From contig JAJSPD010000002.1 of the NCBI GenBank assembly GCA_021307315.1, forward strand, positions 1,482,928 to 1,546,927: a stretch of 64,000 nt of DNA. The letters run 5' to 3'. The position numbers were made by a program, and so were the translations under genes. Below, piece after piece: positions 33,227 through 38,813 of this stretch. Source of the DNA: Bisporella sp. PMI_857 (lineage: Eukaryota; Ascomycota; Leotiomycetes; Helotiales; Helotiaceae). Position 1 is the first letter of the stretch; each line of letters opens with the position of its first letter. Below the pieces are notes generated by a model. That model ran no database searches. It was given only the letters and a program-made list of their open reading frames with translations, and was not told the DNA's origin.

Positions 33227-33234
33227 GCAGTTCG
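33227..33234. repeat. target-site duplication, left copy (GCAGTTCG)
   Basis: Eight bases directly abutting the left terminal TTACCTCAGT. The identical eight bases abut the right terminus at 38806-38813 in the same orientation. Confidence 0.85.
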
Positions 33235-33324
33235 TTACCTCAGTTTCCTCAGACCATAAGATTTTCGCTCACGTGGACGCTGCGCTAATCCTATTTGAGA
33301 ATGCTCGCGAATCTATGGTCTGAG
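33235..33324. repeat. left terminal inverted repeat region
   Basis: Starts TTACCTCAGTTTCCTCAGAC, matching the right end for about 17 of 20 bases with one gap. Further in, similarity to the other end is patchy (CTATTTGAGAATGCT against CTACTTTGAGGCATGCT, and TATGG...TCTGAG). It contains its own inverted pair, CTCAGACCATA at 33248-33258 and TATGGTCTGAG at 33314-33324, an exact 11-bp match able to form a hairpin. Confidence 0.75.
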
Positions 33325-33446
33325 CAGGGAATTAGTCCCCACCATATTAGGACGCGACTTTTTGAATTGTAATAGATAACTTTACCACCACTTCGAATAC
33401 AGTCATAGTAATTGCAAGAAATTTGAAACCGAACATCTTGAACAAG

Positions 33447-36003
33447 ATGCCGTCTTCCAAATCTCCAAATTCGCGGAGGCGTCACGCGCGGCGTGCCCCA
33501 ACTACCCCGCACCTACCCACCCTTCCTCGACGCGTCCAACAGCCCCAAAAGCAGACCGAGTATATCAGTGGCATGAAAAAGGGGGATAGGGTGTATCACG
33601 TGCTAAAAGATTTGCGTGACAAGCACCGGTGGTCTTTGAAAGACTTCATATTGCACTTGGTCACAGAGGAGTCGACTATAAAGGGCTCCCATACTTGTGC
33701 GATGCACACAAAGAACTTGTCTTCTGCCATATATCAACAAGAAGCGGTGGCCAAGCAGTTGTCAAAGGTTTCGGGTGACATCTGGACCACAACCAACTCA
33801 CAGCAAGTCTCACGGATTCGATCCGAGCTCGGCAAAGTGGGCAAGCCAGAGGTCGGATTAGGGAAGTTCGACCCTGACCACGAGGTTGGTACATTGGATA
33901 TACCCGCTTTGGCTGGACGGATACAGAAAGCAGCGCCAGAGCTCTTCAAACTGCTTGCAGATCTTATGGTACAGCAACATAGCAGCGGTCATATCACGTC
34001 GACCGACTCCCAAGGCAGCTTGGTGATGATTTGCTCAATTCTAGCTCGTGCTTATGCCCCGAGGAACTGCAATAACTTTCCTGTGTTGCTAGGTTTGCAT
34101 CTGCATTCAATGGGAGTTAAACGCCGTACTTTGGAAGTGCTTTCCGGTCTTGGTGTTTCTGCAAGCTATTGGGAAATCAATAAGCAGTCTGGGAATGTTG
34201 CTGAGAATGGAACAGTACAGTCGCTCTTCTTGCGTATTTCCCCCTTTCTCTATAAACAACACTGTATTTTTAATGTACCTGAATATAGCTAACTTATACA
34301 TACAGAAACTGATCGCGAGTTTAGCACAGACCCACCGGAATGAGCTTGTTGTCTGCTGGGACAATTTTGATTACAATCAAGGCGTTCGGCATCAAACCCT
34401 GGACGAGCCATCAAAACATGTATCTGCTACCACTGGGAAGCTGTGTATTGGCCGTGGTATACCTGCCGGAGGTCTTCAAAGGTCAATGTTACATCTGGAC
34501 GTGAAGCTTACTTCTCTCGATATTTGGAACGCAAATGGCAACAAAGAAGATGAAATACTTTACAATTGTCAACGTTATTGGATTGCTGAAGCCATTCGTT
34601 ACACCCATCGTACTGCTGTAGAAAGCGTGTTCGATCGGGACAATTCTATGTTATGGCCAGAGCTTCCATCGGTTGAACGTCTTCCTGTGCATCAAACACG
34701 CAATTACACACTCAGCCCTATTCTGGAGAATGAAGGCACGATTAGCGGTACATACAAGGTCATTGATGAGATATTTACAGGTCAACTGAACTTGGATCGT
34801 GAGAAGGAGTTTAATGGGCCGCTTCGGCTAGTGTTTGGGGATCAGAAGACGGTTTCTTTGGTCCGTACTGTACAGAAAGAACGTCAAGAAGCTGGCCATC
34901 CATATGACCAGTATAAGTGGCTATTGCCTGTACCAGGTCTCTTTCACTGGCGGACCAACTACATTGATATGATCCATGATACATACTCTGGATCTGAGTC
35001 TGCAGCAACAGAATCAACACTTTACCACAGCAAGAATGTATTGGGATGTATTCAAGGCCACAAAAGTCCGTTCCATCACAAAGAAGAAGTAGCAACACGA
35101 GCTTTTGATGCAAGGGTGACTGCTTGTTTTTACCGATCCCTTCCAGCCCAAGTTCGCCCTGCAGACTACAGCCAAGTCGACAACTACATCCACAAACTCA
35201 GTTGCGTCACGTTCATGAAAAAGGTTGATGAGATCCGCGAATATATCTTCCTTGCCAAAGAACAGTCAGACCCTGTTGATGAGGAGTTTTTAGCGCATGC
35301 TAGGTTCTTACAACAGATGGAAACATACAAGACGCTCAAGCTGGCTATCAAGCTTGGTGATGTTGGTCTGATCAAAAGGGTACTAGCAAGGTGTTGTTTG
35401 TTGTTTCATGGATCTGGCCAGTCCAAGTATGCTTTCCTGTCATTATACATGACCTGGCTTACTCAAACTGGTGCTGCCGACAAGGTATTACAAGATGCTA
35501 TTCTTGCCAATGGGCTAGTTAACCTCCGTGGTGCAAAAGACAGCCACTTTGAGATGGACCGGCTGAATGAACTCCTCAACCTTGAATTTAGGACATTGGT
35601 AGCTTTACGGAGAGCTTCCACGATGGAAATCAGTGAACTCTTCCGCCGAGCTGCTTTGACTGCCAGTTACTGTACCGGGTTGAAGGTCGATTTCGAAGCT
35701 ACTTTTGGTGAGTACAGCAACGGAAGACACCAAGTCAAAGATGCTAGTATAGAAGTCCGCAATCTAGCGTTCCAGATCTGGAATTCAGATTCTATCATCA
35801 AACAGCCACACGGACGAAGCTCGCCATTCAAACCCAGAGACATCTTACAAAAGGGGGTTGCAAAATTAAATATAGGGGTTGATAGGTTCAACAAAAGTGT
35901 TGTGGAAGGGCGGTGGGAAGAAGATCAAGATCTGGTGAACGCAACATCAACCCCTATTGCAGTGTTAGATAATACTGTCAATCTGGACGACGATAGTGAG
36001 TAA
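33447..36003 (+). CDS. DUF6589-like protein, candidate transposase
   Basis: Two exons, 33447-34214 and 34306-36003, give 821 aa; the 91-nt intron (donor GTACAG, acceptor ATACAG) joins ...AENGT to KLIASLAQ. The first 40 residues are basic and Pro-rich, fitting a nuclear protein. The C-terminal two thirds match the fungal domain of unknown function DUF6589: VVCWDNFDYNQGVRHQTLD, ATTGKLCIGRGIPAGGL, LRLVFGDQKTVSLVR and KWLLPVPGLFHWRTNYIDMI. The Asp residues in WDNFD and FGDQKT sit at the ends of predicted beta strands, as catalytic Asp residues do in RNase H-fold transposases; that role is my inference. The gene has no lesions and lies inside the candidate transposon. Confidence 0.72.
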
Positions 36004-38344
36004 GAAGAGAACACTTACTACTATCTTTACTCCGTTTTAAGCGCTTCGATGCACGATTATGTACGTTGCCAGATATATCCCCAAGGGGTTGGCGACTTGG
36101 CCCTCGCATAACTGGTGCATTTGCAGAGACCTGTAACGGGGACAAGGAAAGTGGATGTTGTAGAGGTGTCGATCGCTGAACAGGAGTTGATTGGCTCATG
36201 GACATTGGGGTAGTAACAGGAGCCCAAATCTCGGGGATGGTTTGATTACCACGAAGGCGTGGATGAGGTGTTGCGGCTGCTTCTCTAGTAGTTGCGATGT
36301 CAAGCTCTTTCCAAAGGGCTTCGCCATACTCCTCAAGATAATGCCATGGCCCAAGAACTGTGCGGAGGCAAGTAAGGTTGATGGCAGCAGTTTGATCTTT
36401 CACTATTCGCGTTAATTGATCTTTGGGAAGAAAGCAGTCGGCTATGGGCCGGAATGATGGATTTGGAAAGACTTTCGGGAGCTGACGTTCACACCAAGCT
36501 GTCAAGTGTGCAAGCATTCTTTTGTGTCTGGCTGTCAGGCTAGGGCCACGTTCATGATACAAGTAGTGTTTGTCCAAAGGGCCAAGGCCAAGTTCGTTGG
36601 GGTTGCAATTGCTACAACAGCGCCGTATGTCTGTTGAGAATTCTGGCGGCTCATCGAATTCTTGCAAGAATCGTTGTCTGAGACAGCCCTCATCATTTGC
36701 AAGCAAATACCAGAAGTCTGCTAACTTGCTCCGACGCTCTCCGTCTGCCATCCTCGTATTTGTCTCATTCCCAGCTTCCTCAATGTCACTACTGTCCTCG
36801 CTATCACTGGCTCCATCCAGTGCTTGCGCTTTCCAACTTGATTGGCGATTCCTTTGTTGACTTGCTTGACTGGCCGAGGAGGGTTTTCGCATACCCTTCA
36901 CCCAGTGTTCTAGCAGTATAATCATCTCACTGCTACCACCGTCTCTCCCTGCCCTGCCACCTCGTTGCCATGGAATAGCAGGCTCGTCGTCCTTTGGTAA
37001 TCCATTCAGTACAACACGTCGAACATCGGGCAAGTTGACACCTATCCCAATTGCTTCTGTAGCTAACAGTATGCGTATCCTAGAACCTGGCTGTTGAAAC
37101 TCTGTAATGATTGCTTCTTTGTCTGCTTTAGCCAACTCGCGATGAAAGACCACGACTACCTCACTACTCTGTGCCTCGGAATACAGGTGGTTGTCGCTCA
37201 TTTGCAGCCACATCCTTAGCTGATCTTTGGTAGAATATGCGACCTTCTTGGAGTCGAAAAAAACCACTGTTTTGGGCACGAGATGCATACAAGACGGAGT
37301 CTTATTATTTGCTCGAACAGCATCGTCCAGCAAAAAGCGTAAGGCGGAAGCACTCTTCTTTTGGTTCTTGGGTATTATGCCCATCCGCAATGCTATCTCT
37401 GGTCGATCGACAGAGGTCCGTATAACAGTAACATTCTTGTCAAATCCGACGGCTCTCTTGACTTCGTCTAGCGCCTGAGTATTCAACGTGGCCGAGCACG
37501 CGAACCAAGGGATATGACTTCCAAACAAGCTGCGTAGCACTCCTAGCCGTGCGTATGCAGTGCGAAAGCTTCTTCCCCATTGAGATACCAAATGAGCTTC
37601 ATCAAGGACCACCAAACCAAGCTGCTCTTTGAACAATGGATTCGTGGCTGTAGTATGAAACTTAGGGCCAGTTGCCAGCTCAGGACTGATCAGAAGGTGT
37701 GTGTATCGGCCATTCTTTACATCTGCAAGAATCTTTTTATTGATTGTGTCTGCATTCAAAAAACATGGCCTACCACCAATATTGGTGATGTATTCAGCCT
37801 GCTCTTGTCCGATTCGATCTAACGGCAATACAACAACAGTCATGGTTTTCTTCAGAAGAACTGATACCGCTTGTAGTATCATACTCTTTCCGAATGAAGT
37901 CTTTGCAATGAGGATGAGGTCTTTCCGTTGATATATGAGCTGCCATAAAGCATCACGCTGGCCTTCCCGCGGAGGATAAGGATATATGTGTTGAATTGCC
38001 TCCTCAATTGCATTCTTTTGGGCCAGTTCATCCTCATGCCTAGCGCCAGCAATAATCTCTTGAGCATGAGCTATTTTGGCGGCCACAACAGCTTGCGTCT
38101 CGACGGGCGTCCTCCCAGCTCCATCTGTCAACCCCACCTCAGCATTTGTAGTTGGTGTTATTGCTACCCCACTTTGTTCAACTGACTCTGGGATGGTGGT
38201 GCCATCCGTAGACGCGGTGTCTCCAGAGAAGTTGTCAAGGAAGCCCGTAATAGACAGTTGTGTACTCGACTGGTCAACTGCATCGATTGTAGTTCGCCGG
38301 GAGAGATTTGTTAGAATCCCTCTTTTGTATGTAGGCCGTGGCAT
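35978..38344 (-). CDS. RecQ-like DEAH-box DNA helicase of the transposon
   Basis: Single exon, 788 aa, ATG at 38344. Helicase motifs in order: QRDALWQLIYQRKDLILI with Walker A AKTSFGKS, VVLDEAHLVSQWG (DEAH, motif II), SATLN (motif III), VFFDSKK (motif IV), ILLATEAIGIGVNLPDVRRV (motif V) and QRGGRAGRDGG (motif VI). A later Cys cluster (RCCSNCNPN) stands where RecQ proteins have a zinc-binding subdomain. N- and C-terminal tails are Ser/Thr-rich. The Walker A is AKTSFGKS rather than the usual APTGxGKS. The combination fits the RecQ-like helicases that fungi carry in many copies, often in repeats. A role in unwinding element ends or repair after transposition is inferred. Its 3' end overlaps that of the DUF6589-like gene by 26 nt. 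Confidence 0.85.
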   Translation of the reverse strand: MPRPTYKRGILTNLSRRTTIDAVDQSSTQLSITGFLDNFSGDTASTDGTTIPESVEQSGVAITPTTNAEVGLTDGAGRTPVETQAVVAAKIAHAQEIIAGARHEDELAQKNAIEEAIQHIYPYPPREGQRDALWQLIYQRKDLILIAKTSFGKSMILQAVSVLLKKTMTVVVLPLDRIGQEQAEYITNIGGRPCFLNADTINKKILADVKNGRYTHLLISPELATGPKFHTTATNPLFKEQLGLVVLDEAHLVSQWGRSFRTAYARLGVLRSLFGSHIPWFACSATLNTQALDEVKRAVGFDKNVTVIRTSVDRPEIALRMGIIPKNQKKSASALRFLLDDAVRANNKTPSCMHLVPKTVVFFDSKKVAYSTKDQLRMWLQMSDNHLYSEAQSSEVVVVFHRELAKADKEAIITEFQQPGSRIRILLATEAIGIGVNLPDVRRVVLNGLPKDDEPAIPWQRGGRAGRDGGSSEMIILLEHWVKGMRKPSSASQASQQRNRQSSWKAQALDGASDSEDSSDIEEAGNETNTRMADGERRSKLADFWYLLANDEGCLRQRFLQEFDEPPEFSTDIRRCCSNCNPNELGLGPLDKHYLYHERGPSLTARHKRMLAHLTAWCERQLPKVFPNPSFRPIADCFLPKDQLTRIVKDQTAAINLTCLRTVLGPWHYLEEYGEALWKELDIATTREAAATPHPRLRGNQTIPEIWAPVTTPMSMSQSTPVQRSTPLQHPLSLSPLQVSANAPVMRGPSRQPLGDISGNVHNRASKRLKRSKDSSKCSLLTHYRRPD

Positions 38345-38717
38345 GATGAAACGCGGCGATAACGTGGACTTGAGGATTAAAATCGATATACATCAATCTA
38401 ATAGGCCCCTGGATGATATACACCAAGTTAGCATTGATTTCATCCCATGATTGGTGCTTTAGAAGGCGACGGCCATTTGGAGAGGTGGAGAGACGCAGTC
38501 GCTCGGTACACATAACTACCTCAAATCTGGATCAATTCTTAAAACGAGAGCAGGTTTATAAACAGGACTTCAAGGCGCACAAAATGGTGGAGCTGGATTT
38601 TTGATAAACGCGTTGTGGTGTTGAGAATTGACATCGTGTAAATATCGCATTCGCGTCCTTTTGGTGTTGTTTACAGCAAAACCTCGCTTCCTAATATTGC
38701 GCTCACCAAATTAACAA

Positions 38718-38805
38718 CTCAGACGTTCGCCATAAAAGCTGAGGTAAGCATGCCTCAAAGTAGACTAGCGTTAATAATAAGCGAACGTATGAGGGACTGA
38801 GGTAA
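38718..38805. repeat. right terminal inverted repeat region
   Basis: Ends ACTGAGGTAA. It contains an inverted pair, CTCAGACGTTCGC at 38718-38730 and GCGAACGTATGAG at 38781-38793 (12 of 13 bases pair), and the terminal motif CTGAGGTAAGCA occurs twice, at 38739-38750 and 38797-38808. Confidence 0.72.
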
Positions 38806-38813
38806 GCAGTTCG
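38806..38813. repeat. target-site duplication, right copy (GCAGTTCG)
   Basis: Exact repeat of 33227-33234, directly abutting the right terminus ACTGAGGTAA. Confidence 0.85.

Follow-up and report, generated by a model that had tools for sequence, protein, structure and literature searches.

A stretch of 64,000 nucleotides from the ascomycete Bisporella sp. PMI_857 (contig JAJSPD010000002.1, positions 1,482,928 to 1,546,927; hereafter the window) contains a mobile DNA transposon that combines a gene for a DUF6589 protein with a gene for a RecQ-like helicase. Comparison of its copies in the host genome (55.6 Mb, 284 contigs) has shown that the element has transposed, duplicating 8 bp of its target and mobilising gene-less derivatives. 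The DUF6589 protein would be its transposase, with an RNase H fold, and the helicase would assist in a more speculative manner; this reading as a whole is considered highly likely. This likely role as transposase, in a pairing with a RecQ-like helicase, suggests a function for DUF6589 (PF20231), an orphan family described in its Pfam entry as a 'family of unknown function'.

The interior of the element (33235–38805, 5571 bp) is flanked on both sides by the exact 8-mer GCAGTTCG, and each terminus starts with TTACCTCAGT, so that the termini read TT..AA. The first-pass annotation of the window had described this exact repeat outside inverted termini, with two convergent genes in between, and both the sequence and the boundaries of the copies confirm it. 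Matches of the genome copies to each end break off at the proposed terminus, which rules out a chance repeat. The features are as follows.

33227–33234, no strand: left 8-bp target-site duplication GCAGTTCG, an exact repeat of 38806–38813
33235–33244, plus strand: left terminal inverted repeat TTACCTCAGT, where matches to the copies start
33246–33258, plus strand: left subterminal inverted repeat, outer arm TCCTCAGACCATA, pairing at 12 of 13 bp, arm length reached in 0 of 200 block shuffles
33314–33326, plus strand: left subterminal inverted repeat, inner arm TATGGTCTGAGCA, from the pairing analysis of the ends and the gene-less copies
33447–36003, plus strand: DUF6589 gene, proposed transposase of 821 amino acids, from Pfam PF20231, frame, splice signals, copies and fold
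35978–38344, minus strand: RecQ-like superfamily II helicase gene, 788 amino acids in a single frame, from domain and structure matches
38718–38730, plus strand: right subterminal inverted repeat, inner arm CTCAGACGTTCGC, arm length reached in 0 of 200 block shuffles
38739–38747, minus strand: extra terminus-like copy TTACCTCAG, 58 bp internal to the right end, with a second CTGAGGTAAGCA at 38739–38750
38781–38793, plus strand: right subterminal inverted repeat, outer arm GCGAACGTATGAG, from the pairing analysis of the ends and the gene-less copies
38796–38805, minus strand: right terminal inverted repeat TTACCTCAGT, where matches to the copies finish
38806–38813, no strand: right 8-bp target-site duplication GCAGTTCG, a repeat of 33227–33234

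The 3' ends of the DUF6589 and helicase frames share 26 bp. Because the window is without annotation, gene starts and the intron were taken from its sequence. The DUF6589 intron (34215–34305) was deduced from its GT..AG ends and the reading frame; joining exon 1 (33447–34214) to exon 2 (34306–36003) gives 821 stop-free codons.

The first-pass annotation had proposed looking for further copies with the same termini and 8-bp duplications, and these were found, with different 8-mers. Four full-length copies (the one in the window, two on contig C221 and one on C93) have identical exons; the sole differences among them are two 1-nt indels in the intron. The 8-mers flanking them are exact and each is different: GCAGTTCG, CCCAGGGG, CCCCCGGG and CCGTCGTC. 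Five short, gene-less copies have both ends, and exact 8-bp duplications flank three of them (two on C150, one on C56), which makes seven of the nine two-ended copies of this family, here called family 1. Since the copies are nearly identical, the element appears to have been active recently.

Empty sites were sought by searching the joined flanks of six insertion sites against the host genome. An uninterrupted counterpart with a single 8-mer, that is, a paralogous empty site, was found for four of them. The second C221 copy has six empty counterpart places, and all four that were fetched agree; the short C56 copy has one, 98.8% identical over 162 bp. For the first C221 copy both fetched matches agree, and for the C93 copy one of two does. 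The differing flanks, the 8-bp duplications and the empty sites rule out segmental duplication.

On C150 (L041:866–3010), two gene-less copies lie head to tail and share an 8-mer, in the order GGGGGGTG, copy, GGGGGGTG, copy, GGGGGGTG. The C56 copy matches one of them exactly, and the C3 copy is 99.3% like the other; because of these separate matches, the arrangement is ascribed either to a second insertion that reused the duplication of the first or to recombination that joined two copies. At three of the six sites (L038, L039 and L041), the 8-mers CCCAGGGG, CCCCCGGG and GGGGGGTG are G/C-rich and lie near the ends of repeated, similarly palindromic-looking sequence, which hints at a target-site preference of the element.

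The assignment of the first gene to DUF6589 is based on a match to PF20231 (E 1.4e-63). An AlphaFold2 model of the protein (predicted local distance difference test, 88.4; predicted template modelling score, 0.90) carried out the structure prediction that the first-pass annotation had called for. Its nearest solved folds are those of P, Hermes, ISCth4, Transib and RAG, and VIA ranks 1–17 are all DDE transposases or RAG; P element and Hermes score higher, though by a small gap. Acidic residues are conserved across the aligned relatives: D16 in 38 of 38 rows, D176 in 93 of 95, E413 in 88 of 90, D415 in 89 of 90 and E419 in 89 of 90. D16 is covered by only 38 of 97 rows, because many gene models begin later. 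From fold and conserved acids, the DUF6589 protein is very probably the transposase of the element. The idea of an RNase H-like transposase put forward in the first-pass annotation thus stands as regards the fold; its catalytic activity is predicted, with E413, D415 and E419 (model numbering) as candidates for the third catalytic residue. CxxC occurs in three of 91 DUF6589 rows, and no mention of DUF6589 was found in the literature searched. One listed relative, P0092 (Metarhizium anisopliae H633G_09939, 970 amino acids), combines DUF6589 with PF02171 (Piwi), which may reflect a genuine fusion or a faulty gene model.

The second gene encodes a protein with Pfam DEAD and Helicase_C domains (PF00270, PF00271). 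Its nearest solved structures are RecQ, RECQ5 and WRN chains, with E values down to 2.5e-27, indicating a RecQ-type superfamily II core, and the earlier label 'RecQ-like helicase' is borne out by these matches. The name RecQ-like is preferred to RecQ because the score for the curated RecQ family TIGR00614 (141.2 bits) is under the cut-off of 219.8.

Comparison of the loci has shown that the element belongs to a lineage with three or more families in the host genome, all of which retain this gene pair and this design of ends. A DUF6589 profile search gave 16 matches at 13 host loci and none in 14 control genomes. A helicase relative is convergent with DUF6589 at 10 of the 13 loci; the remaining three (C136, C268 and C269) are fragmentary or degenerate, and the stretch examined there showed no convergent helicase. 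Family 2 starts with TTACCTCAGGCACTCAGGCCAT and includes elements on C249 and C277 (6.39 kb, mutually 99.3% alike) and a relative on C10 (about 84%), with shorter relatives on C9 (685 bp, exact duplication CCGGCACC) and C233 (694 bp). Its end motif occurs 20 times in the genome at up to two mismatches, and the reversed control not once. Family 3, which starts with TTATCTCAG, comprises three elements of 10.9 kb (C2:1097322–1108204, C210:113552–124455 and C224:341324–352223) that are 99.55–99.73% alike. Relative to the window proteins, identity in families 2 and 3 is 31–44% for the DUF6589 frames, 38–43% for the helicases and 25–28% for the first exon. The stretch C93:7107–8916, some 2 kb away from the intact copy on that contig, holds a degenerate end resembling those of family 2, along with a helicase relative that contains 11 stops.

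The pairing extends beyond the host. Protein searches, each scoring 7996 candidates, gave at least 98 DUF6589 and at least 87 helicase relatives among the matches listed. Alignment A2 omits two of the 98 DUF6589 matches (P0097 and P0098), and A3 consists of 51 of 87 N-terminal matches plus four longer proteins. Among the matches listed, 15 DUF6589–helicase pairs are found on contigs of equal size (14 distinct sizes; helicase rows P0124 and P0161 set aside), and shifting one list by 1–20 bases leaves 0–5 pairs. In Penicillium sp. DV-2018c, the locus tags of the two proteins follow each other directly (N7461_001047 and 001048). Their divergence is correlated (Mantel r 0.79, 0 of 9999 permutations; 15 pairs, namely 14 listed and the window). 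Because of these shared contig sizes, consecutive tags and correlated divergence, the DUF6589 and helicase genes are considered to tend to travel together.

The ends are structured as well. Six distinct ends from the three families all begin with the terminal TTAYCTCAG, followed at most 25 bp further on by an arm of an inverted repeat. These subterminal inverted repeats have arms of 12–16 bp and spacers of 50–84 bp, with CTCAG inside an arm at five of the six ends. The arm sequence differs between the two ends in families 1 and 3, and across families, while complementarity is kept. Shuffles that swap dinucleotide blocks, which are not exact dinucleotide shuffles, reached the observed arm length in 0 of 200 cases at five ends and in 1 of 200 at the sixth. 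All four gene-less copies of about 1.07 kb with two ends have both arm pairs intact, unlike the 155-bp C62 copy and the solo end C10:99862. Such repeats, which the first-pass annotation had not mentioned, could be a substrate for the helicase.

The proposed DUF6589 transposase would have an RNase H fold of the DDE/D type in which, as in Hermes, P, Transib and RAG1, a large helical insertion separates the second catalytic residue from the third. It would bind the TTAYCTCAG termini together with the CTCAG repeats in the subterminal regions, excise the element and join its ends to the target with an 8-bp stagger. More speculatively, the RecQ-like helicase might assist by unpairing the subterminal inverted repeats or, alternatively, by acting on the donor gap or on replication intermediates.

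Several observations go against this account of a mobile element with 8-bp duplications or bear it out only in part. In family 1, two of the five two-ended short copies (C3 and C62) have no duplication. The empty sites anticipated by the first-pass annotation exist as paralogous counterparts, but none was found in the host genome for the GCAGTTCG of the window, nor a clear one for the C150 site. The second fetched C93 counterpart lacks three of the 8 bp, and at the first C221 and the C93 sites the match left of the 8-mer covers only 18–20 bp. In family 2, C249 and C277 are without duplication (two of the four two-ended copies found), and the C233 relative has one of only 7/8. None of the three family-3 copies has matching flanks of its own, 8-mers matching between copies only. 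The six flanking 8-mers of family 3 form three identical pairs, swapped in a circle around the three copies, as expected from later recombination between intact insertions, or from assembly misjoins. A fourth family-3 end on C256 (215941) also bears CTTGGTGG, 40 bp from the end of its contig.

Whether the element is new is a separate matter, and published systems are compared here as they are described in excerpts of the papers cited. AcademH is reportedly a lineage of the Academ DNA transposons (from Kojima in 2020). The element may be an AcademH transposon or a close variant, in which case DUF6589 would be Pfam's placeholder name for the Academ-type transposase domain, the helicase would be that of AcademH and the mechanism would be the one given above. 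AcademH is a DNA transposon with a helicase beside its transposase (PMC10045372, PMC10799480), reported from Basidiomycota, Ascomycota and Mucoromycota (PMC10799480), and PF00270 and PF00271, both found here, are tied to helicases of AcademH, KolobokH or Helitron (PMC10799480). However, AcademH duplications are 9 or 10 bp (PMC10045372), in contrast to the 8 bp seen in three families here. AcademH, compared by description only, is therefore a serious candidate whose gene content fits and whose duplication length does not; the chance of this identity is put just short of even. A slightly more tentative proposal is that DUF6589 is the transposase of a new superfamily, defined by TTAYCTCAG ends, 8-bp duplications, pairing-conserved subterminal repeats and a convergent RecQ-like helicase that opens them. 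The element may represent such a superfamily or belong to the Academ group as a member with 8-bp duplications, and both readings stand. Helicase-bearing fungal transposons are already known (KolobokH, AcademH; PMC9587614, PMC10045372, PMC10799480), and, because these two already join transposase and helicase in fungi, the earlier description of the transposon as 'undescribed' is not established.

As for the mode of movement, cut-and-paste is more likely. P element and Hermes, which score higher in the fold comparison, though by that small gap, are cut-and-paste transposons. A copying mode (copy-out/paste-in or otherwise replicative), with the helicase at the replication step, is judged unlikely; the C150 tandem members do not come from one copying event, being only 97.7% alike.

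The movement of gene-less copies implies an enzyme that acts in trans, which would also suit an unseen transposase encoded elsewhere, with DUF6589 and the helicase as passengers. The transposase-like fold of DUF6589 speaks against this, as does the retention of the gene pair, rare for passengers, in three diverged families whose ends are of one type, and this explanation is very improbable.

The duplications of hAT elements are usually 8 bp, as here. A helicase partner is not usual for hAT (Hermes) or P element transposases. None of 27 DUF6589 members matches the hAT or P element Pfam families in sequence, and C/DxxH, in a stretch 25–45 residues after the second catalytic Asp, occurs in one of 91 rows, the column being mostly GxxH. 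The KDZ group (Zisupton, Dileera, Kyakuja) is fungal, and Zisupton and Dileera duplicate 8 bp, but its accessory gene is a TET/JBP dioxygenase instead of a helicase (PMC12730594). No KDZ match (PF18758) was obtained among the 27 members, nor in a genome search that gave no signal in any control either.

KolobokH, a fungi-only DDD/E transposon with a RecQ helicase (PMC9587614), has next to no chance of being the element: Kolobok has a TTAA duplication and 5'-RR..YY-3' termini, against varied 8-mers and TT..AA here, its RecQ lies downstream of the transposase domain, against a separate convergent gene here, and the C/DxxH common to Kolobok is the motif found in a single DUF6589 row. The signature and termini of the Sly-type CMC transposon (PMC4592977) do not match. 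Duplications of 2–5 bp with mostly CA..TG termini were also looked for; the element has 8 bp and TT..AA. Helitrons were compared for inverted ends and duplications, and both features argue against a Helitron.

If the reading given here is true, the orphan family PF20231 becomes a transposase family, and the DUF6589 and RecQ-like genes tallied as host genes in fungi deserve re-examination. The near-identical copies would also allow direct tests of what a helicase partner and structured ends contribute to DDE transposition.

Subtelomeric RecQ-like helicases of fungi are multicopy, and those of one species are without detectable zinc-binding or RQC domains (PMC4522978, PMC5576322); unlike them, the helicase described here is part of a mobile element whose ends and duplications are defined. 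The last base of the window (64000) is the end of the 1.55-Mb contig C112, about 25 kb from the element, and the insertion in the window may itself be subtelomeric.
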